45,172 nt of DNA, taken from positions 1-45,172 of the forward strand of contig CADBYZ010000003.1 in the NCBI GenBank assembly GCA_902799075.1, written 5' to 3'. The translations under genes were made by a program, and so were the position numbers. The notes under the pieces are model-generated. The model was not told the DNA's origin and ran no database searches. It saw only the letters and a program-made list of their open reading frames with translations. Source of the stretch: Oscillospiraceae bacterium. Lineage in GTDB: Bacteria > Bacillota > Clostridia > Oscillospirales > Oscillospiraceae. Positions 10,739 to 18,119 of the stretch are shown here, piece after piece (within the stretch, counting starts at the first letter, position 1; every line of letters starts with the position of its first letter).

Positions 10739-10757
10739 CGTTCCAGAATCGCAGACA

Positions 10758-10897
10758 GGGCGCGTTGCAAAATGCGTGTCATCCTGAGCATAAGCGAAGG
10801 ATCTTTTTCTAAAAGTTTGCAAAAACCTTCAAAAGAAAGATTCTTCGTCACTTTGTTCCTCAGAATGACAAAAAAGCAAGCATTTTGCAACGCGCCC
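10758..10897. repeat. 140-bp MITE-like hairpin repeat
   Basis: The ends are a perfect 18-bp inverted repeat (10758-10775 and 10880-10897). The interior continues as an imperfect inverted repeat built on GTCATyCTGAG and GAAGrATCTTT motifs. The GTCATyCTGAG...GAAG...ATC core resembles short intergenic repeats seen in many bacterial genomes. There is no coding potential; a single transcript through it would fold into a long hairpin. Confidence 0.75.
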
Positions 10898-10981
10898 TTT
10901 TCTTACTATATTTTGCAAATGTACTCAGCCAATCCCGTCATCTGTCCGGTGCGCGCCTGCATCTGCGGCGGTAGCTTCCCG

Positions 10982-11029: not shown

Positions 11030-11338
11030 TCAATCAAAGCTTCCGAAGGGCATCATGTTGTCGTAGCCGTCGTAGTAGAAGCCGCCCTCATCGACCCAGA
11101 AACTGGCGCCGCAGACCTGGCAGGTGTAGCCGTTCTGGCATACGCCGTCCTCAAGCCACCAGCTGAAGTTGCCCTCATACTGGTTGCCGCAGTAGGGGCA
11201 GGCGATGGTGTGGCCGTTGGCGTAACCTTCATGCTCCACAAAGCCGCCGCTGACCTTCTCGATCTCGCTGTCATTGAGCTTCACGGGAGATGCCGCAGGC
11301 GTCTTTACGATCTTGTTTCCGATTTTCTTTTCTGCCAT
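11030..11338 (-). CDS. Cys-rich small protein with a double-glycine-type leader
   Basis: 102 residues. Residues 21-32 (LNDSEIEKVSGG) match the L-x-x-x-E-L/I-x-x-V-x-G-G leader of bacteriocin and RiPP precursors that are cut after GG by C39-type transporters. The part after GG is unusual for a bacteriocin: it contains CPYC (47/50), C67 and CQVC (73/76), like a zinc ribbon, and ends in a Tyr/Gly/Met/Phe-rich acidic tail. The start at 11338 is set by AAAGGG; the frame upstream to 11371 has no better site. No C39 transporter or maturase is in the window. It may follow abrB in one transcript (43-base gap) and ends at a strong terminator. Function unknown. Confidence 0.65.
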   Translation of the reverse strand: MAEKKIGNKIVKTPAASPVKLNDSEIEKVSGGFVEHEGYANGHTIACPYCGNQYEGNFSWWLEDGVCQNGYTCQVCGASFWVDEGGFYYDGYDNMMPFGSFD

Positions 11339-11381
11339 TTTTATTTCCCTTTCCTTTCTGTCCGCTTTCAAGCAGACTTAA

Positions 11382-11627
11382 TCACAAATCTGACTTGATG
11401 TCTTTGAGACAATCAGCACAGATATTCTTGCCCTCAAAGTTCAGCACGTTTTTCGCGGAATTGCAGAAAACACATGCCGCCTGATACTTGCGCAGAATAA
11501 TGCTGTCCGCCTCCGTACAGATTTCAACAGGATCTTTCTCGCTGATGCCGAGCGTTCTGCGCATCTCGATGGGCAGAACGATGCGCCCGAGCTCGTCGAC
11601 TTTTCTAACCATACCGGTAGATTTCAT
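11382..11627 (-). CDS. AbrB/SpoVT-family transcriptional regulator with C-terminal Cys4 motif
   Basis: 81 residues. The N-terminal swapped-hairpin DNA-binding domain is clear: STGMVRKVDELGRIVLPIEMRRTLGISEKDPVEI is the classical AbrB/Abh/SpoVT signature. The C-terminal part is short and carries C52-x2-C55 and C70-x2-C73, a possible zinc site in place of the larger domain of AbrB. GGAGGG sets the ATG at 11627. Before insertion of the 5.6-kb element, the gene lay 44 bases downstream of yebC on the same strand, so it was probably co-transcribed with yebC; it is now next to the element end and an outward promoter at 11848-11877. Confidence 0.88.
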   Translation of the reverse strand: MKSTGMVRKVDELGRIVLPIEMRRTLGISEKDPVEICTEADSIILRKYQAACVFCNSAKNVLNFEGKNICADCLKDIKSDL

Positions 11628-11671
11628 ATGTATCCCTCCGCATTATCTACTGCCGGCAATTGCGAGTCGGA

Positions 11672-11713
11672 TTACTCCGCATCCTCCCAGTTGTGCCAGA
11701 CGTTCTGCACGTC
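11672..11713 (-). other. Left attachment site: displaced original 3' end of yebC
   Basis: On the minus strand this reads as the C-terminal codons of YebC (VQNVWHNWEDAE) followed by a TAA stop at 11672-11674. The intact yebC ends with the same codons but TGA. It is the left copy of the 40-bp repeat. Confidence 0.88.
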
Positions 11714-11781
11714 ATGCGATAAGCGACCGCTGCCCTATCGGGCGACGTCTGCTTTTCGCTGTTATTTTCTCACTTTTCAAT

Positions 11782-11837
11782 AACACAACGTCGCTCTTCT
11801 GTTGTGTTTTTTCGTAGTGGTATGTCACTACGCTTTT
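11782..11837. repeat. Two adjacent hairpins inside the left end of the element
   Basis: AACACAAC/GTTGTGTT (11782-11789 with 11801-11808) followed by T4, and CGTAGTG/CACTACG (11813-11819 with 11826-11832) followed by CTTTTTC. On the plus strand both look like intrinsic terminators, which would shield the element from rightward transcription entering from the host side. Recombination-protein binding is another possibility. Confidence 0.55.
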
Positions 11838-11847
11838 TCTGCTTGTT

Positions 11848-11877
11848 ATAATAATACAAGAGCAAGGGGAAAGTCAA
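11848..11877 (-). promoter_or_regulatory. Outward-facing promoter at the left end of the element
   Basis: TTGACT (11872-11877, overlapping the recombinase stop codon), 18-base spacer, TATTAT (11848-11853), reading leftward out of the element through the left attachment site into abrB. It could replace the transcription that abrB lost when the element separated it from yebC. Confidence 0.5.
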
Positions 11878-12488
11878 GCCCTCCCCTGCTCCATCATCTG
11901 TGCAAGTTTGTAAAAACTTGTCCGCTTCGCGCCTGTCTGCTCCATTGCGGCCTTAGCAGTAATCTCCCCTGCTTTCCACGCGCCGTACACTTCTTCCCAA
12001 TTCTCAGGGAACGTAAGCGAAGGCCGTCCAAGTTTCTTGCCCTTCTTTTTCGCCGCCTCGATGCCCTCCGCCTGCCTCTGCTTAATCGTGGCGCGTTCCT
12101 GTTCGGCAATCGTCCCAAGCACTTCAATTAAGATGTTATTGACCATTTCAAAGACCCATTCCTGACCCTCGGGCAAATCCATCATCGTTGTCGGCAAGTC
12201 AATCACTTTGAGACGGATGCCGTTATCCTTGAAGTATTGCAGTTCGTTCTTAATGTCCGCCTTGTTGCGGCTCAAACGGTCAAGGGATTTAACAACCAAT
12301 GTATCACCGCGCCGCAGCATGGCGTTTTTCAAGGCTTGGTATCCTGTTCTATCCAAATCCTTGCCGCTTTCTTTATCGGTGATAATCTCCCTTTCCGTGG
12401 CTCCAAGAGCAAGGAAAGCGGAAATCTGACGGTCAAGGTTTTGGTCTTTACTCGATACTCTTGCGTAATAATATGTGCGGCTGTCCAT
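11874..12488 (-). CDS. Small serine recombinase (resolvase/invertase family)
   Basis: 204 residues. The catalytic domain shows YYYARVSSKDQNLDRQ with nucleophile Ser12, then DKESGKDLDRTGYQAL, GDTLVVKSLDRLSRNK, LTTMMDLPEGQEW-like text and the long E helix EQERATIKQRQAEGIEAAKKKGKKLGRPS. A short helix-turn-helix (about 165-200) ends the protein. This is the size of Tn3/Hin-type resolvases or invertases, not of large integrases. AAGGGGG upstream sets the ATG at 12488; the frame to 12527 is not needed. Its upstream region carries several short inverted repeats that could be its sites. It may resolve multimers or invert a segment; insertion into yebC is better explained by the tyrosine integrase at the other end. 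Confidence 0.9.
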   Translation of the reverse strand: MDSRTYYYARVSSKDQNLDRQISAFLALGATEREIITDKESGKDLDRTGYQALKNAMLRRGDTLVVKSLDRLSRNKADIKNELQYFKDNGIRLKVIDLPTTMMDLPEGQEWVFEMVNNILIEVLGTIAEQERATIKQRQAEGIEAAKKKGKKLGRPSLTFPENWEEVYGAWKAGEITAKAAMEQTGAKRTSFYKLAQMMEQGRA

Positions 12489-12546
12489 GTTCGCGCCCCC
12501 TTCGTTCATCTGTTCGTATATTATCATAAGTATTCGTAAATGTCAA

Positions 12547-12571
12547 GCGCTTTGCGAATATGTTTGTAAAT
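12547..12571 (-). repeat. Candidate recombination subsite, copy 1
   Basis: Read leftward: ATTTACAAA, one base, ATATTCGCAA, one base, GCG. The same words occur in the opposite orientation at 15888-15918. It lies 60 bases upstream of the serine recombinase start among further inverted words (CGTATA/TATTCG near 12515-12537). Confidence 0.35.
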
Positions 12572-12644
12572 TAATTTTTATACTTCTCGAACACGATAAA
12601 CGACAAGTTTTTGCTTGTTTGTAAAGGTGTACTCTTGCGAACAA

Positions 12645-12677
12645 AGGAATGGGCATTAACTATAAATGCCCATTCCT
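12645..12677 (-). terminator. Terminator of the leftward element operon
   Basis: A 13-bp perfect stem (12645-12657 with 12665-12677), loop AACTATA, 11 bases beyond the stop of the secreted-protein gene. The T-tract on the minus strand is short (TTTGTT), so efficiency is uncertain. Confidence 0.6.
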
Positions 12678-12688
12678 GCCACGCTGTT

Positions 12689-13321
12689 TTAACTCAATGT
12701 GATACTCCAATTACCAACTGCCGAAACTTCAAGAATATATGGATTATACTTCATCATTACAGTCCCAGAATACTCTTCTGAGGTATTAACCATTAGATTA
12801 GACCTGTCGCCATAAGTTCTCATGTGAAAGTGTCTCTCTGCCGAATTTCCTTCAATTTGAGCAAGTTTTGCATCGACATCTAATAGGACTATTCTATCTC
12901 CCTTTCCATTATAAGTGCCAATACTGTCTATAATATCGCATGTCCAAATTGAGCGGACTTCGATATGCCAATTTCCATTTGATGATATTTCAAGAAGAAC
13001 TGTTTCCTGGCTTGGGTCAATTGTAATTCCCTCATAAGGTTCTGATGTATTAACAAATAATTCTGTTGAATCTCCTTTTGAATCATATCCCCTGACATGA
13101 AAATGCCGTGACTCATCATTTCCTTTTATGTAAAGCACAAATGCTCCTTGTGGGTGTTCAATACTCAAAATTGAATCGCCCTTTCCATCATAAACAATAG
13201 AATCTGGAATATTATCTGGTATGTTAAGTTTTGATGATTTGTTTTCAGCAAATGCATTGCTACAAATATAGAATACAAAAATTAATGAAAAGCAAATAAG
13301 AATAGAAATAGTTCTTCTCAT
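12689..13321 (-). CDS. Secreted protein with two internal beta-rich repeats
   Basis: 210 residues. A signal peptide (RR, a hydrophobic stretch, then a likely cut after SNAFA near residue 25) sends it out of the cell. The rest is two copies of one domain. Each begins with Y-x-GKGD, continues through G-N-x-x-x-RHFH-x-R, then VNTSE-x-Y-x-G, and ends in LE-(V/I)-S-x-x-GNW-x-I. The first copy covers about 43-125, the second about 137-210. No enzyme motif is seen; the pattern of alternating strands suggests a beta-sandwich binding domain. AGGAG sets the start. It is the last gene of the leftward element operon, after the zinc-ribbon membrane protein, so the two may act together at the cell surface. 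Function unknown. Confidence 0.7.
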   Translation of the reverse strand: MRRTISILICFSLIFVFYICSNAFAENKSSKLNIPDNIPDSIVYDGKGDSILSIEHPQGAFVLYIKGNDESRHFHVRGYDSKGDSTELFVNTSEPYEGITIDPSQETVLLEISSNGNWHIEVRSIWTCDIIDSIGTYNGKGDRIVLLDVDAKLAQIEGNSAERHFHMRTYGDRSNLMVNTSEEYSGTVMMKYNPYILEVSAVGNWSITLS

Positions 13322-13369
13322 ATCTTACTCCTTGTATGGTTCTAATAATACTATAATTTTCTTTTCCTA

Positions 13370-14098
13370 TTACTCAATATAAAAACCTACTGCATCATAA
13401 TACTTCATAAAACTACCATCAGCCTCATTAAAAGTCGAAGTATAACTTGTAATATTACCAGTTGGATTTACAGCACAATTGCATAAGTCTGAATATACTT
13501 CATACAAATCTTTTATTGAACTATATGCTTCTTTGTATTCATCTGGCGGATTTACAAGTTTCTTCATTTGTGAAGCAACTAAATCTTGATTCGTTTTAAT
13601 TGAATCAATTTTCGTTATAAAACTGCTATCTCTAAAAAGATTTGATAACGCTGTATTAAAATCGTCTACAAAATATCCATTTGGCCTGGTATATTTGTCT
13701 GTTTTTGAATCTCTTTTTTCGTAGATAGAATTATACCAAACATCATGAATTAAACCGCTTGCTGTTTCAGCATCAGAAGCGCCAAGAAGCATAGATGTAC
13801 GGGCCAAAGATAACGTTGAAAGATAATTACTTTTTGCTTCTTCTGCTTCTTTTTTTGCCTTTTCTGCCTTCAAATAATTAATTGCACCAAAAGCAGCCAC
13901 TATTATTGCAATAATTACAGCAACTATTATAATTGTCTTTTTTGCAGATTTATTAACAGATACTTTCGCTATCTCTACTTTCTGTGGTTCAAAATTGGTA
14001 CTTTCCCCATCTAGCGAAGTTGGACAACCACAATTTGGGCATGCCGCGGCCTTATCAGAATATTCCTTTCCACATTCTGGGCAAATAATAAGTGCCAT
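13370..14098 (-). CDS. Membrane protein with N-terminal zinc ribbon and extracytoplasmic domain
   Basis: 242 residues. The first 25 residues form a zinc ribbon (CPEC at 6-9, CPNC at 20-23). A linker leads to one membrane helix (about 53-75), then a Lys/Glu-rich coiled coil (about 78-92) and a helical domain to the end, with the likely topology of ribbon inside and domain outside. This layout is common in Bacillota zinc-ribbon membrane proteins of unknown role. AGGAG 7 bases upstream sets the start. The gene begins 8 bases after the HTH gene and is followed, after 48 bases, by the secreted repeat protein. Codon and base use are AT-rich like the rest of the element. Confidence 0.7.
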   Translation of the reverse strand: MALIICPECGKEYSDKAAACPNCGCPTSLDGESTNFEPQKVEIAKVSVNKSAKKTIIIVAVIIAIIVAAFGAINYLKAEKAKKEAEEAKSNYLSTLSLARTSMLLGASDAETASGLIHDVWYNSIYEKRDSKTDKYTRPNGYFVDDFNTALSNLFRDSSFITKIDSIKTNQDLVASQMKKLVNPPDEYKEAYSSIKDLYEVYSDLCNCAVNPTGNITSYTSTFNEADGSFMKYYDAVGFYIE

Positions 14099-14106
14099 AA
14101 TAACTC

Positions 14107-14298
14107 CTATTTTCCATTATTTATAATATTCTGCACCATTAATTGTATATTTTGCGGTACATCTTTCATCTGTACATATCTTGATACTGTTGTCCCGCTC
14201 CGCCCGATTTCACGGCCAACGGCTTCATATGTACCAAGAGTCTGATACAGTGTAATCATTTTTACAATTTCTTCGGGTGAGACGTGTTTTGCTCCCAT
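14107..14298 (-). CDS. Small helix-turn-helix protein
   Basis: 63 residues. Residues about 8-45 (SPEEIVKMITLYQTLGTYEAVGREIGRSGTTVSRYVQ) read as a helix-turn-helix of the resolvase/Hpr type: a first helix, the A-V-G-R-E-I-G helix, a turn and the recognition helix TTVSRYV. It lacks a catalytic domain, so it is a DNA-binding regulator or an accessory factor. The ATG follows the stop of the gene in front by one base, indicating translational coupling. Its stop codon is TAG overlapping the AGGAG of the next gene. It is a candidate repressor for the inverted repeats at 14552-14629. Confidence 0.6.
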   Translation of the reverse strand: MGAKHVSPEEIVKMITLYQTLGTYEAVGREIGRSGTTVSRYVQMKDVPQNIQLMVQNIINNGK

Positions 14299-14299
14299 A

Positions 14300-14521
14300 T
14301 TACTTCTTGCCTTTCTTTGTGGGCTTATCCGCTGTCTTTAAGCATGCATCCGAATTTTCCATGCAATAATTCCACATATCATTAATATAACCCTTAAAAT
14401 CCAATGACCTTGCGCCTTGTCCTCCTGCCGCTGCAATAATTGCGTTCATTGCGTTCAACTTGTCCTGATAATTCCAAGGAACCGTGATTGTTTTCTTGTC
14501 TGTGTCAAGAATAATTCGCAT
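14300..14521 (-). CDS. Small protein of unknown function, first gene of the leftward element operon
   Basis: 73 residues. The sequence starts MRIILDTDKKTITVP and ends in a lysine-rich tail (KPTKKGKK); the middle is predicted helical (YQDKLNAMNAIIAAAGG). It is not recognised as a known enzyme. GGGAGGA sets the ATG at 14521; the frame upstream to 14608 overlaps the promoter and is not used. It is the first gene after a near-consensus promoter with two inverted repeats, and is coupled to the HTH gene behind it. Small basic proteins of this kind are frequent in phages and integrative elements. Confidence 0.6.
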   Translation of the reverse strand: MRIILDTDKKTITVPWNYQDKLNAMNAIIAAAGGQGARSLDFKGYINDMWNYCMENSDACLKTADKPTKKGKK

Positions 14522-14551
14522 TGTTAAATCCTCCCCATAAATCTTTGTACA

Positions 14552-14580
14552 AATATCACAAGCATCACTGTTGTGATATT
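14552..14580 (-). promoter_or_regulatory. 10-bp inverted repeat just downstream of the transcription start
   Basis: AATATCACAA (14552-14561) and TTGTGATATT (14571-14580) around GCATCACTG. It begins about five bases after the predicted transcription start, so it may be an operator or a leader hairpin. Confidence 0.55.
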
Positions 14581-14591
14581 TTATTAATTGT

Positions 14592-14629
14592 ATTATATAG
14601 CAAAGCAAGGAAATGTCAAGAATTTCCTT
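14592..14629 (-). promoter_or_regulatory. Strong promoter of the leftward element operon with operator-like repeat
   Basis: Perfect TTGACA (14614-14619), 16-base spacer, perfect TATAAT (14592-14597). An 8-bp inverted repeat, AAGGAAAT (14607-14614) and ATTTCCTT (14622-14629), brackets the -35 box, which fits a repressor site. Confidence 0.8.
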
Positions 14630-14931
14630 AGAAATTGTCTGAAATGCAGTGATTTATAGTAAATATTATCAAAATTGATGAAATTTTAGTGTTTTCATCG
14701 TTTTTTGGTAATTCTGACTTGTTTTCCTTCGTTTTGATTGATTATCCTTACAATTCGTTCATTTTGACCTGTTTCTAAAAATTTGCGGAGACGGTAAAAA
14801 AATTTGCTTTTCATAGTTATATGCCTCACACCTATATCTAATTTCCATTGAAAGCATTTTTAGTCCCGAAATACCGCCCGGGGTCTTTTCACATGTAATC
14901 GGAACATATTTAAGCCATTAAATGTCCTAAT
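14630..14931. other. Gene-free AT-rich control region between the divergent element operons
   Basis: About 300 bases with no supported gene. It holds T-rich runs, the word AAAAATTTGC twice (about 14777 and 14799), several TCGTTTT/TTTTGA words and a small GC island (CCGCCCGGGG at 14874-14883). A replication or transfer origin is conceivable given its position, but no iteron array or nick site is recognisable. Confidence 0.4.
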
Positions 14932-14960
14932 TTGAAAAATTCAAAAAAATATGTTATAAT
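14932..14960 (+). promoter_or_regulatory. Strong promoter of the rightward element operon
   Basis: TTGAAA (14932-14937), 17-base spacer, perfect TATAAT (14955-14960) with an extended TGT. The leader of about 70 bases leads to GGAGG at 15021-15025. Confidence 0.8.
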
Positions 14961-15035
14961 ATATTTAGAAAAACGGAGATGGTAATAATCCTCGCCCCGT
15001 TTTATAAATTATGTGAAAAAGGAGGCCATATTAAA

Positions 15036-15308
15036 ATGGCAAATAGTATTAGAAACACTCGGTCATAGTATAATGACCCCATGGAATTATTATTAAACGC
15101 TCTTGGAAACACAGTTGAAACATCTATTTTGGCTCAAATCCGTCGTCAAATTAATGTGAACAATATGATTGAAAGAGAAAACCAGCGCCAGCAGACAGAA
15201 GCAATTGTATGTGAAGTGCTTTCCCGTATCAACGCAACCGTTGATGTATCAGAAATCATTTCATAGATTGATGAATTGCGCAGAGCAATAGATAGTCTTG
15301 GGAGGTAA
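15036..15308 (+). CDS. Small ORF containing two in-frame TAG codons
   Basis: From an ATG at 15036 with a strong GGAGG (15021-15025), the frame runs 90 codons to a TAA at 15306-15308, broken only by TAG at 15066-15068 and 15264-15266. There is no internal TAA or TGA although the DNA is AT-rich. The pieces are MANSIRNTRS, then 65 residues (YNDPMELLLNALGN...SEIIS), then IDELRRAIDSLGR. The final TAA sits right after the GGGAGG that serves the next gene, the normal spacing of an operon. The middle piece alone has no ribosome site at its ATG (15081). Both TAG codons follow TCA; the first lies within the hairpin GGTCAT/ATGACC (15061-15078). Read through, it is a mostly helical 90-residue protein. 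It is either a recoded or suppressed gene or a twice-mutated one. Confidence 0.5.
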
Positions 15309-15315
15309 ATTAATT

Positions 15316-15864
15316 ATGGCATATACATCTCCCTATCAAAAGACGGTCTACATTCATCGTTCCCCATTAGAAAAGAACTTTCTCGGTATCAATAATGATA
15401 GTTGGAAAGCCGCCGCGCGGATTTTAAACCCACCTGCTTTTCTACTCTATATATATTTTGCGGCTAATAAAGACAGATTTGGACTCGCATTATCTCCAAA
15501 AGCAGTACAAAAGGAAATCGGCATGGCGCGTTCCACGTTTTATGACCAATTGACCGCCTTGGAAAGCCTTGGTTTTATAGTAAAGGAAAAAGGTAAAAGC
15601 AATATATACCACTTCTATGAACGTCCTTTGGGCGTGCCTGATATCATTTATCATCCCTCCGATGACGTACAAGATTGTTTTAATTATTCGCCTCTCGGTT
15701 TTGACATGTCAACTTGCGGTGAAGAATATCCGCAAGAGAATATAGAAATATATAATAAATCCTCTCCCAAAGAGGATAAATATATATTACCAAAAGGTAA
15801 AGAAGACAATACTCAGGACGCAGAGTCAACACCTAAAAAAAATCCATGTGGATTTGACTTCTAA
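15316..15864 (+). CDS. Winged-helix DNA-binding protein of the element
   Basis: 182 residues. Residues about 35-105 form a winged-helix domain: NPPAFLLYIYFAANKDRFGLALSPKAVQKEIGMARSTFYDQLTALESLGFIVKEKG is a helical wHTH with the recognition helix at ARSTFYDQLTAL and a following wing. The C-terminal 70 residues are acidic and low in structure. Proteins of this kind act as replication-linked or regulatory factors on plasmids and integrative elements of Clostridia; the exact role is not visible. GGGAGG (15300-15305) sets the ATG at 15316, and a TTG at 15298 is not needed. It is the last gene before a double terminator. Confidence 0.7.
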   Translation: MAYTSPYQKTVYIHRSPLEKNFLGINNDSWKAAARILNPPAFLLYIYFAANKDRFGLALSPKAVQKEIGMARSTFYDQLTALESLGFIVKEKGKSNIYHFYERPLGVPDIIYHPSDDVQDCFNYSPLGFDMSTCGEEYPQENIEIYNKSSPKEDKYILPKGKEDNTQDAESTPKKNPCGFDF

Positions 15865-15887
15865 TCAGCGCTCAGCACGTCGCGCGG

Positions 15888-15918
15888 ATTTACAAATACG
15901 TTAGATATTCGCAACGCG
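15888..15918 (+). repeat. Candidate recombination subsite, copy 2
   Basis: ATTTACAAA, eight bases, ATATTCGCAA, one base, GCG. It is the inverted partner of 12547-12571 with a 7-base insertion. The two copies bracket almost all of the element's cargo in opposite orientation. The rest of 15865-16007 shows no gene. Confidence 0.35.
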
Positions 15919-16007
15919 GATTATCAATTACGGGTATACTACATCACTTCTAATAATGATGTACAAAATCTCTTGTTTCATATAATCACTTTCATATTTT
16001 CTACAAA

Positions 16008-16041
16008 GAGCGGGAGGCGCATAACCTCCCGCTCATTTTAT
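16008..16041 (+). terminator. Terminator of the rightward element operon
   Basis: A 10-bp perfect GC-rich stem (16008-16017 with 16025-16034) followed by ATTTTATT. Confidence 0.8.
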
Positions 16042-16060
16042 TAGTCTTTTGGAGCCATTT

Positions 16061-16085
16061 AGCCGCCTTTGTGCGGCTTTTTTCT
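16061..16085 (+). terminator. Second tandem terminator
   Basis: AGCCGC/GCGGCT (16061-16066 with 16073-16078) followed by a run of T to about 16085. It backs up the terminator at 16008. Confidence 0.75.
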
Positions 16086-16195
16086 TTACTTTGGCTTCAT
16101 CCTGATGTACCATGCGAATAGCAAGATAAGCCGTTAAAACCGTCTACGCCGTGCTTTTCCGCCTTTTACATGCCCTGTTCATGTGAAATATTACT

Positions 16196-17089
16196 TTACA
16201 TGCTCATTAAAACACTTCTTTGCTTTGTCATGGTGATAATGTCATCGTCCCGCAAACTATTTAAATAGGTCTGTGTAATCTGTACATTCTCGTGTCCCAA
16301 GAGACGAGAAATCGTGTAAAGGTCTGTACCCATTTTGATTTGTTGTTGCGCGAAAAAATGTCGGCAGGTATGAGGCGATACTCGTATATCTTTTATCCCG
16401 TCGCCGTGTTTCTTAACAATATGCTCAACTGCGCTATTAGTCAACTGCCGCCCATGAAACGAAAGAAAATAATAAGCGTCTGTATTCTTTAAGACATAGT
16501 AGTTTTCTTTCACAAGTTCATATTTCATCATGGCTTTGTGTAAAATCGGCGTAATGGGCACAACTCTTTGTTTGTGGTTTTTCCCGTTGATAATAATATA
16601 ATCGCCGTGTATGTCGCTCGGCCGAATACAGCACAACTCCCAACATCTGATACCAGTTTCAAATAACATAGTTAAAATTGCCGCGTCTCGTAAAGCAAGA
16701 TAATCTCTGCCCTTACAGGATTTGAGCATGGCGCGGACATCGGACGGAGTAAATGCCATGATAACGGCTTTTTCCTGCTTGCACCATTTAAAATTTTTCT
16801 TTGTATTAAACCCTCCATAGCCCTCATCATAACAATACTGAATAAAGGCTTTAACCACTTTCAAAAGTCCGTTGATATAACTGCCCTTGCGCCCTTTTCC
16901 AATCATGTATAATGTGAACCTACGGACAACCGCAAGCGTCAAATCGTCCAAATCCACCATATTTTCTTCCTCTTGGAAATAGCGGAGGAACAGATTTATG
17001 TTGTTACGATAACTCCGTATTGTTTTCTCTGTAAACTTTCTGACTTCAATCTCTACAAGGTATTCTTTTACCGCAACGCTGATTTTCAT
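16196..17089 (-). CDS. Tyrosine recombinase / integrase
   Basis: 297 residues. The N-terminal SAM-like core-binding domain (about 1-105) begins KEYLVEIEVRKFTEKTIRSYRNNINLFLRYF. The catalytic domain has Arg148 (ETGIRCWEL), a lysine at 170 or 173 (NGKNHKQRVVPI), His240-x-x-Arg243 (SPHTCRHFFA), His266 (LLGHENVQITQTYL) and the nucleophile Tyr275. All catalytic residues are present, so it should be active. It lacks the extra N-terminal arm-binding domain of lambda-type integrases, resembling XerC/D-size enzymes. It lies next to the right 40-bp repeat, as expected for the enzyme that inserted the element into yebC. AGGAGGG (17097-17103) sets the start but is sequestered in a hairpin. Confidence 0.93.
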   Translation of the reverse strand: MKISVAVKEYLVEIEVRKFTEKTIRSYRNNINLFLRYFQEEENMVDLDDLTLAVVRRFTLYMIGKGRKGSYINGLLKVVKAFIQYCYDEGYGGFNTKKNFKWCKQEKAVIMAFTPSDVRAMLKSCKGRDYLALRDAAILTMLFETGIRCWELCCIRPSDIHGDYIIINGKNHKQRVVPITPILHKAMMKYELVKENYYVLKNTDAYYFLSFHGRQLTNSAVEHIVKKHGDGIKDIRVSPHTCRHFFAQQQIKMGTDLYTISRLLGHENVQITQTYLNSLRDDDIITMTKQRSVLMSM

Positions 17090-17094
17090 AATAA

Positions 17095-17127
17095 AACCCT
17101 CCTATTGTACGTCACAACAGGAGGGTT
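17095..17127 (-). promoter_or_regulatory. Hairpin that buries the integrase ribosome-binding site
   Basis: On the integrase mRNA, AACCCTCCT (17119-17127) can pair perfectly with AGGAGGGTT (17095-17103), and the latter contains the AGGAGGG ribosome site 7 bases before the ATG. Folding would block translation. Confidence 0.65.
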
Positions 17128-17233
17128 ATTGTATGTCATCGTTAAAGCAAGGTATTGCACAACTGCTTTTCCATTTCTCTTGGAAAAGTTCTAACTAGAA
17201 ATCATACCGATGGATTTTCGGAACGAAAAGCCA

Positions 17234-17977
17234 TCACTCCGCATCCTCCCAGTTGTGCCAGACGTTCTGCACGTCGTCGTTATCCTCGAACATGTCGAGC
17301 ATCTTCTGCATGTTCTTGATATCGTCCTCATTGGTGAGCTTGATGTAGCCGTTCTGAGGCAGCATCTCCACCTGAGCACTCAGGAGCTTATAGCCCTTCG
17401 CGGTCAGGGCGTCGGCCACGGCGGCGAGGTCATCCTCGGTGGTATAGACGGTCATGGTCTCGTCGCCCTCATTTTCAAAGTCGGCGGCGCCAGCGTCCAG
17501 CGCGTCCATCATGACAGTATCCTCGTCCAGCTCCTCGTCCTCGTTGTCAATGACGATGACGCCCTTGCGGTCGAAGGACCAGGACACGCAGTTGGCAGCG
17601 CCCATGTTTCCGCCGTACTTGTCGAAGTAGTGGCGCATCTCACCGGCGGTGCGGTTGCGGTTGTCGGTCATGGTCTCGACGATGACCGCGACGCCCTGGG
17701 GGCCGTAGCCTTCGTAGGTGATCTTCTCGTAGTTTTCGGTGTTGCCCGCGCCGAGGGCCTTGTCGATGGTGCGCTTGATATTGTCATTGGGCATGTTGGC
17801 GGCCTTGGCCTTGGCAATGACGGTGGCGAGCTTGGAGTTTGAGCGCGGGTCACCGCCGCCGCCCTCCTTGACCGCGACGATCATTTCGCGGGCGATCTTG
17901 GTGAAGGCCTGCGCGCGCTTGGCGTCTGCCGCGCCCTTCGTTTTCTGTATATTATGCCATTTGGAATGTCCGGACAT
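17234..17977 (-). CDS. yebC: YebC/PmpR (TACO1-like) family protein
   Basis: 247 residues with the full family pattern: MSGHSKWHNIQKTKGAADAKRAQAFTKIAREM at the N-terminus, GGGDPRSNSKLATVIAKAKAANMPNDNIKRTI, YEGYGPQGVAVIVETMTDNRNRTAGEMRHYFDKYGGNMG and a C-terminal VWHNWEDAE. Family members are reported both as DNA-binding regulators and as translation factors. GGAGA upstream sets the ATG at 17977. The last 40 bases double as the right attachment site of the element, so the present 3' end was brought in by the element; the protein sequence is unchanged but the stop became TGA. Its promoter is at 18019-18047. Confidence 0.95.
   Translation of the reverse strand: MSGHSKWHNIQKTKGAADAKRAQAFTKIAREMIVAVKEGGGGDPRSNSKLATVIAKAKAANMPNDNIKRTIDKALGAGNTENYEKITYEGYGPQGVAVIVETMTDNRNRTAGEMRHYFDKYGGNMGAANCVSWSFDRKGVIVIDNEDEELDEDTVMMDALDAGAADFENEGDETMTVYTTEDDLAAVADALTAKGYKLLSAQVEMLPQNGYIKLTNEDDIKNMQKMLDMFEDNDDVQNVWHNWEDAE
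17236..17275 (-). other. Right attachment site within the 3' end of yebC
   Basis: A 40-bp perfect repeat of 11674-11713. It covers the last 13 codons of yebC apart from most of the stop codon, so integration restores the gene. Confidence 0.88.
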
Positions 17978-18018
17978 GTTGTGTTCTCTCCTTATACGAT
18001 GAATAATTCTGCTGAAAT

Positions 18019-18047
18019 ATTTTAACACATCCGCATAGGGATGACAA
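18019..18047 (-). promoter_or_regulatory. Promoter of yebC
   Basis: TTGTCA (18042-18047), 17-base spacer, TAAAAT (18019-18024) with an extended TGT. Confidence 0.75.
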
Positions 18048-18091
18048 GAGTCTCTTTTGTAATTCCGGCCCTGATTGCCAAAAACTGTGCC

Positions 18092-18119
18092 TTGCAAAAG
18101 TCCGCGCGTCGGCTACAAT
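18092..18119 (+). promoter_or_regulatory. Promoter of the small membrane protein gene
   Basis: TTGCAA (18092-18097), 16-base spacer, TACAAT (18114-18119). The predicted start of transcription is only about 10 bases before the start codon, and the GAGGTGAT ribosome site (18126-18133) is at the very 5' end. Confidence 0.6.

Follow-up and report, generated by a model that had tools for sequence, protein, structure and literature searches.

Integrative and conjugative elements (ICEs) and integrative and mobilizable elements (IMEs) with a tyrosine integrase are known at the 3′ ends of rpsI, rpmG, rplL, guaA and lysS, as given in the available text of two papers (Ambroset et al. 2016, PMC4701971; Guedon et al. 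2017, PMC5704250), and the direct repeats of the target 3′ end described in that of PMC4701971 measure 12–54 bp. Here we analysed a 45,172-nucleotide stretch of DNA from an Oscillospiraceae bacterium (contig CADBYZ010000003.1; the whole stretch is called the window), which very probably holds a 5.56-kb integrative element at the 3′ end of yebC (11674–17275), inserted by a tyrosine-recombinase crossover and belonging to a lineage that uses the 3′ ends of either yebC or gap. Like the ICEs and IMEs in the available text of PMC4701971, this element combines a tyrosine integrase, a direct repeat of the target 3′ end and an unchanged target product, and the repeat is exact over 37–55 bp in the window and in the related elements of three other genomes (G054, An901 and G310). 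Unlike them, it occupies yebC, a gene without mention in the available text of PMC4701971 or PMC5704250; moreover, the window element has neither relaxase nor conjugation genes, and some of the related repeats are longer (119–129 bp). The features that define the insertion are as follows.

17234–17977, minus strand: yebC, the target gene, with its TGA stop in element DNA (Pfam PF01709/PF20772, NCBIfam YebC)
17236–17275, minus strand: yebC-proximal 40-bp attachment repeat (attL), exact match
16196–17089, minus strand: tyrosine integrase (int), 297 aa, core-binding and catalytic domains (PF00589, 5.7e-28; PF02899)
11674–11713, minus strand: abrB-proximal 40-bp attachment repeat (attR), the displaced yebC end, exact match
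11382–11627, minus strand: AbrB/SpoVT-like chromosomal neighbour outside the element, 95–96% identical in two genomes of the genus, G085 and G027

The exact repeat joins 11674–11713 with 17236–17275, 5562 bp from start to start, and covers the final 39 nt of yebC and extends one base into the stop codon. No match of this kind arose in 100 dinucleotide-preserving shuffles, even with 3 mismatches allowed. The yebC copy in use stops with TGA and the displaced copy with TAA, and both encode DVQNVWHNWEDAE followed by a stop; beyond attR lie the TAA and an abrB upstream region common to G085 and G027. The G+C content (GC) of the 5,562 bp between the gene's stop codon and the displaced stop is 38%, versus 60% for yebC. 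Along the window it runs at about 0.60 on the yebC side, at 0.30–0.42 from 12500 to 17000, and at about 0.50 over the end that carries a serine recombinase, the same as in the abrB-side flank (0.51–0.54). A first-pass annotation of this DNA had described the last 40 bases of yebC as occurring twice, 5.56 kb apart, around an AT-rich segment with a tyrosine integrase on the yebC side, the displaced copy ending in TAA and the reconstituted gene in TGA. The exact repeat, the low GC, the integrase at 16196–17089 and the two stops after one and the same C terminus bear out this description, with a minor correction of its bounds from 11672 and 17277 to 11674 and 17275.

The full-length integrase starts 144 bp past the yebC stop codon. 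Residues R148, K173, H240, R243, H266 and Y275, which we take to form its active site, are invariant in all 17 aligned integrase rows, and the solved chains that it matches include XerC-like, XerD and XerA recombinases. Three hallmarks of a 3′-end island are present together in the window element, namely border repeats of the target end, a restored target product and a tyrosine integrase with a complete active site. A Pfam search gave no match to an arm-binding domain, and the protein shows only SAM-like core-binding and catalytic domains, as do the simple tyrosine recombinases in the available text of PMC8138268; unlike those, it is tied to one protein gene, and GACATAC repeats beside int resemble arm sites. 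The repeats are placed as follows.

17107–17137, minus strand: two TGACATAC-like direct repeats before int, with GACATAC at element offset 99 and TGTGACGTAC at offset 120

Further GACATAC copies lie at offset 621, inside int, and at offset 5410 (11820–11826), near the opposite end; counted on both strands, the exact motif occurs 3 times in the 5.6-kb element versus 3 times in 39.6 kb of flank. Judged from their sequence, the direct repeats before int are candidate binding sites of the recombinase or of an accessory protein.

We propose that the crossover would take place between the element's own yebC 3′ end (attP) and the chromosomal yebC 3′ end (attB). The element side would then provide the last codons and the TGA stop, leaving YebC unchanged, and the displaced TAA copy would mark the far junction. 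In this scheme the circular form, the exact crossover and the route of transfer are presumed.

The first-pass annotation had also suggested that the yebC 3′ end could recur as an integration site and had pointed to other yebC insertions with related integrases as a check, and 13 other genomes in which a relative of the integrase immediately follows yebC support this. Counting the window, an integrase of the lineage follows yebC on 14 distinct contigs, each taken as a separate genome. When 149 relatives were searched with the window integrase, 8 further matches exceeded 200 bits; one of them (G054, 79%) lies directly after yebC and the other seven do not. When named genomes were scanned with two close integrases, all 7 loci found were directly after yebC: Oscillospiraceae RGIG1767 (L184, counted as one with G054), Pseudoflavonifractor phocaeensis An901 (L185), Intestinimonas butyriciproducens An565 (L186) and four metagenome-assembled genomes (L187–L190), with the integrase visible in part only at L188, L189 and L190. 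Searches of the family (10 of 400 genomes at E 1e-60) and of the order (9 of 394 at 1e-50), both counts including the window, added G310, G366, G289 and G496 at yebC from the former and G747 and G202 from the latter. G202:C16 (L257) has two integrase copies downstream of yebC, both broken by internal stops, the second several kb from the gene. By comparison, none of 22 control tyrosine recombinases had yebC or gap in its flanks (up to 1.5 kb each), nor was either gene near the integrase at any of 18 loci from a phylum search.

A second yebC end was located for 8 elements, 1.55–17.0 kb downstream. In all eight, the displaced copy and the host's own yebC encode the same last 13 residues and stop, an agreement that is partly built in because the search tolerated 6 mismatches in 30 nt. 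This match of displaced copies to each host's own C terminus upholds the earlier proposal that the element restores the YebC protein. The exact repeat measures 40 nt in the window, 37 in G054, 43 in An901 and 55 in G310; those of L189 and An565 carry mismatches, with 27 and 20 nt exact at the stop, and those of G289 and G496 extend to 119 and 129 nt. The two copies of L189 differ to the left of GTCTGGCACAACTGGGA and those of An565 to its right; if these differences mark two parents, the crossover would be confined to the 17 nt of GTCTGGCACAACTGGGA. By analogy, the window crossover most likely lies at 17247–17263 (GTCTGGCACAACTGGGA on the minus strand, the codons for VWHNWE). Since the yebC attB core is conserved among the hosts, these integrases are candidate site-specific insertion tools for Clostridia that are hard to modify.

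The lineage, found in Oscillospiraceae and its order, appears to target the yebC 3′ end or, in a sister group, the 3′ end of gap. Twelve integrases with 35–42% identity to that of the window were examined, and every one lies behind the 3′ end of a GAPDH gene recognised from its sequence or, in one tandem case (G039), behind a GAPDH 3′ fragment. A GAPDH query then gave gap at 5 of 5 further loci, two of which repeat loci of the first set, making 15 gap integrases in 14 genomes, and G310 holds one element at each of the two genes. A direct repeat of 33–100 nt was present in 7 of the 12, and 6 of these 7 start at, or at most 2 bases from, CAACGAGTG; of two more members tested, G642 has a repeat of 66 nt and G696 none in the short stretch searched. 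A tree was built from 9 integrases at yebC, 8 at gap and 3 outgroup sequences; those at gap group together in a single clade (90/97), and the target labels are clustered. Both cores contain AAC(GAG)TGGG, in the coding context WHNW or WYDNEW, which may explain how one lineage came to use both targets. As an observation apart, G039:C17 (L035) has gap-targeting integrases in tandem, the second following a displaced gap 3′ fragment.

More distant relatives were found at other genes. The G1226 integrase (L253; 35% over about 270 aa) lies approximately 158 bp after guaA; 15.6 kb beyond int there is a displaced copy of the guaA end, roughly 200 nt long and with a single mismatch, and both ends read ATIEWE followed by a stop. 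As judged from these sequences, this is the same mode of insertion as at yebC. The guaA-inserted islands, to which this relative belongs, share the geometry and the restoration of the yebC elements and differ in the target gene and in a repeat much longer than the window's. A relative in G1137 follows a DUF59-like gene (named by eye), and no repeat was found on testing there.

No paper naming yebC or gap as an integration target was found in a limited search of the open-licence literature, and yebC goes unmentioned in the available text of PMC12884075; the TIGER island database could already hold either target. These elements add two widely conserved protein genes to the targets of integration, with one integrase lineage settled on both.

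Uninterrupted sites were sought among the relatives. The G054 element lies between yebC and a block read from its sequence as rnpB-murD, and yebC is joined to this block without an insert in G089, G079 and G051, which therefore represent uninterrupted sites for the G054 element. Weak empty-site evidence exists for the An901 element: in G197 and G874 the match that crosses the stop codon spans about 80 nt only, and the alignment beyond it is poor. G012 was also considered and was rejected, having no alignment past the stop within 150 nt. Across the genus, the distance from yebC to rnpB-murD varies from about zero to nearly 8 kb, which suggests that the yebC-rnpB interval is a variable site beyond these elements.

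Several results weigh against the reading of an integrative element at yebC. An empty site with yebC 44 bp from abrB was seen in none of 30 genus yebC loci with flanks of up to 1.5 kb (one of them the window), and the arrangement was also absent from the longer regions examined. Next to abrB, G085 and G027, both without the window element, carry a further yebC end that mismatches at 3 and 4 of the 40 positions. Elsewhere, 6 of the 14 insertions yielded no displaced yebC end (L187, L188, L190, G366, G747 and G202), the downstream sequence available being 15.5 kb for G202, 3.1 kb for G747 and within 0.5–4.9 kb for the others. In the tree, the yebC users are not one clade: they require 2 label changes and are united in 31% of bootstrap trees, so that yebC use may be ancestral or have arisen twice. 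Finally, the window genome is a 75.7%-complete draft.

The second copies in G085 and G027 call for a different history to be weighed, in which a partial duplication of long standing, or one border of an earlier insertion, had placed the yebC end at abrB before the element arrived; the element would then have entered one copy, and the intervening DNA would have been lost. Among the 82 genus genomes examined, abrB is near yebC only in the window, G085 and G027, and the latter two alone, among the matches listed, match the abrB-side flank across the junction. Their order is yebC, an adenosine-deaminase-like gene (named by eye), a degraded yebC end of about 115 nt and abrB, and the sequence past the window's displaced copy matches theirs, as such a history would have it. 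It also fits this history that the fragment in these two genomes starts at about −115, where the long repeats of G289 and G496 have their border; on this agreement of the 5′ border we read the fragment as what is left of an older insertion of such an element at the same site, and the degenerate second end, going by its sequence, is probably just that. No homologue of the deaminase-like gene was matched in the window genome, again as expected if intervening DNA was lost, though at 75.7% completeness this says little. Against an older copy stands the sharp limit of the identity between the two window copies: they agree at all 40 bp and diverge abruptly beyond, as do those of G054 and An901. We give this history somewhat less than an even chance. 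Because the identity is limited to 40 bp, this integrase accounts for the repeat as it now stands, regardless of which copy was hit, and the older copy would alter the history of the locus and not the mechanism of insertion.

The first-pass annotation had proposed looking for relatives with yebC 44 bases from abrB and no insert, and had named the lack of such a genome, or relatives with both copies and no insert, as grounds for giving up the idea. No such empty site was present in any genome examined and G085 and G027 do have second copies, so that at the window locus both grounds formally apply; we do not consider the core reading of an integrase-mediated insertion at yebC overturned, as the fragment looks like an older insertion.

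Cis-mobilizable remnants of integrative elements (CIMEs) keep both att sites and lack an integrase. The segment of G085 and G027 between yebC and the degraded yebC end, which lacks this integrase, resembles a CIME in this respect; unlike in CIMEs, its copies are degenerate. The deaminase-like gene region, 0–1.7 kb after yebC (L073 and L076), is possibly an integrase-less remnant of an older element. A pattern of the yebC end matched 83 of 102 genus genomes, and five had a second copy (G000, G054, G085, G027 and G010). The one in G010:C153 (L149:4835–4894) is a stray yebC 3′ end of about 60 nt just after an unrelated gene, on a 9.7-kb contig that gave no match to the window integrase.

The sequence between yebC and int was then compared across genomes. 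A profile of this leader, from 45 nt past the stop to the int start, was built from nine integrase-bearing elements and was applied to the 85 genus genomes with a YebC match, leaving out G016, G035 and G080 and four with less than 200 nt downstream. It matched 6 of 78 locus sequences without this integrase (76 genomes, two entered twice) with E-values between 1.6e-8 and 3.5e-20; among 75 control stretches taken 1 kb beyond, it matched none. Six genus genomes hence retain only the left end of an element, and in G015 the first codons of int are still present (by eye). We had also considered that the sequence just past the yebC stop is native, and this was rejected because elements in other genera share it and G015 keeps the int start. 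The yebC 3′ flank is in this way a recurrent, scar-bearing site in the genus, which helps to interpret the variable gene content there.

Such relics raise the question of whether the window element is itself a dead passenger, integrated long ago and unable to excise. The six left ends, one with a truncated int, and the two broken integrase copies of G202 indicate that decay does occur at the yebC site, and no excision factor was identified with confidence in the element. Its perfect repeat and its full-length int with the invariant residues speak against decay, as does a serine recombinase conserved at 85–88% among three other elements, and we regard a dead passenger as unlikely.

The leader shared by the elements and relics folds into a stem with the int ribosome-binding site as its 3′ arm; a T run and then the start codon often come next. 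Its position in the window is as follows.

17095–17127, minus strand: hairpin over the int ribosome-binding site, then a T-rich run and the ATG; 15-bp stem, z −5.9

Single-sequence folding was compared with shuffles, using the best possible start codon for the yebC, gap and control groups alike and leaving out controls L021 and L028 and the broken G202 integrase. A hairpin with z of −3 or lower was present in 8 of 13 yebC members, 14 of 15 gap members and 2 of 20 controls, with medians of −4.8, −7.1 and −0.4, respectively. Some insertion sequences are known to shield their transposases from external transcription by means of hairpins, and no paper on an integrase version was found by title in a limited literature search. 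We tentatively suggest, as a possibility rather than the probable case, that the lineage returns to its host gene a transcript end as well as a protein end. The left-border hairpin would end the yebC transcript as a terminator and, by locking the ribosome-binding site, would keep int untranslated on read-through mRNA while the element is integrated; after decay of the element it may persist as the gene's terminator. Telling against this are the 5 yebC members in which the hairpin is weak, with z above −3 (An901, L187, L189, L190 and G310), and the strong hairpins of the 2 controls; nor are the counts independent, because some leaders are near-copies, three of the gap leaders being almost identical. 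The shared hairpin suggests a simple way for an element behind an expressed gene to silence its integrase. If the suggestion is right, host genes carry transcript ends borrowed from mobile elements, and transcription from a constitutive host gene cannot switch on the integrase while the element is integrated.

Read from the yebC side, the window element begins with the tyrosine integrase, followed by a divergently encoded replication-initiator-like protein, a small helix-turn-helix protein, two cargo genes and finally the small serine recombinase. Besides int, its reading frames are as follows.

15316–15864, plus strand: winged-helix, replication-initiator-like protein (phrog_270, replication initiation, 5e-7)
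15081–15266, plus strand: small open reading frame of 61 aa
14300–14527, minus strand: 75-aa protein kept in the G054 element, 54% identical to the G054 copy
14107–14298, minus strand: 63-aa helix-turn-helix protein (HTH_38 below cut-off), 56% identical in G054 and 40% in An901
13370–14098, minus strand: zinc-ribbon protein, cargo (phrog_4852, unknown function, 9.7e-25)
12689–13321, minus strand: 210-aa protein of unknown function, cargo (weak phrog_7523, no family at cut-off)
11874–12494, minus strand: small serine recombinase of the resolvase/invertase type, 206 aa (PF00239, 1.8e-30; phrog_125, DNA invertase, 2.6e-49)

This last enzyme adjoins one junction and shows strong conservation across the elements of the window, G054, An901 and L189 (85–88% identity of the latter three to the window's), and might on these grounds be thought to perform the integration in place of the tyrosine integrase. 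It is a short protein of the resolvase/invertase type (206 aa), nothing in the G310 element at yebC, available in full, matches it, and an 86% identical copy is carried by the gap-borne element of G240. Absent from a yebC element and present in a gap element, the serine recombinase does not track the target and the tyrosine integrase does, which makes integration by the former highly improbable.

Homologues of the replication-initiator-like protein, at 39–40%, are encoded by the G054 and An901 elements. The 63-aa protein is, from its sequence, a possible control or excision factor. The 61-aa open reading frame had no family match in Pfam, NCBIfam or PHROG and the 75-aa protein none in Pfam or PHROG; a 60% homologue of the 210-aa cargo protein is located 3.4 kb downstream of yebC in G052 (L121). 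Scans of the element's proteins gave no relaxase family (Pfam, NCBIfam and PHROG), no conjugation family at curated cut-offs (Pfam and NCBIfam), apart from one weak below-cut-off match of the zinc-ribbon protein to a pilin-like conjugal protein, and no structural PHROG family as a sign of phage structural or packaging genes. Lacking these, the element would need a helper to move between cells. No relative of the integrase at 60% identity or above was found in 50,697 phage records or among the 2,284 plasmid records that matched it by tblastn, and an IMG/VR scan by two peptide patterns gave no confirmed relative. Rfam gave nothing at E of 0.1 or below in 11300–18100, and PADLOC gave three matches, each at E 0.004–0.01 and too weak to use.

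The cargo of related yebC elements is diverse. The G289 element (L203) includes arsenic-type genes, which encode a permease of the ArsP type, a transporter of the SBF family and a protein of the low-molecular-weight phosphatase family that, by eye, resembles an arsenate reductase, and the G496 element (L204) carries type I restriction-modification subunits. The 10-kb element of G310 (L201) has an RtcB ligase, an AAA protein, a D5-type primase and 18 tRNA genes (15071–16656), and this tRNA array beside the RtcB RNA ligase and the AAA protein looks like a tRNA-repair or anti-nuclease cargo. Outside the element, the window contains at 10757–10910 a dispersed repeat of about 140 bp with inverted ends, found also at G000:C80 and C12 and in several relatives. 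On the minus strand at 11030–11338 lies a gene for a small protein with a double-glycine leader-like motif (LNDSEIEKVSGG) and cysteine pairs, which, read by eye, is perhaps a peptide precursor.

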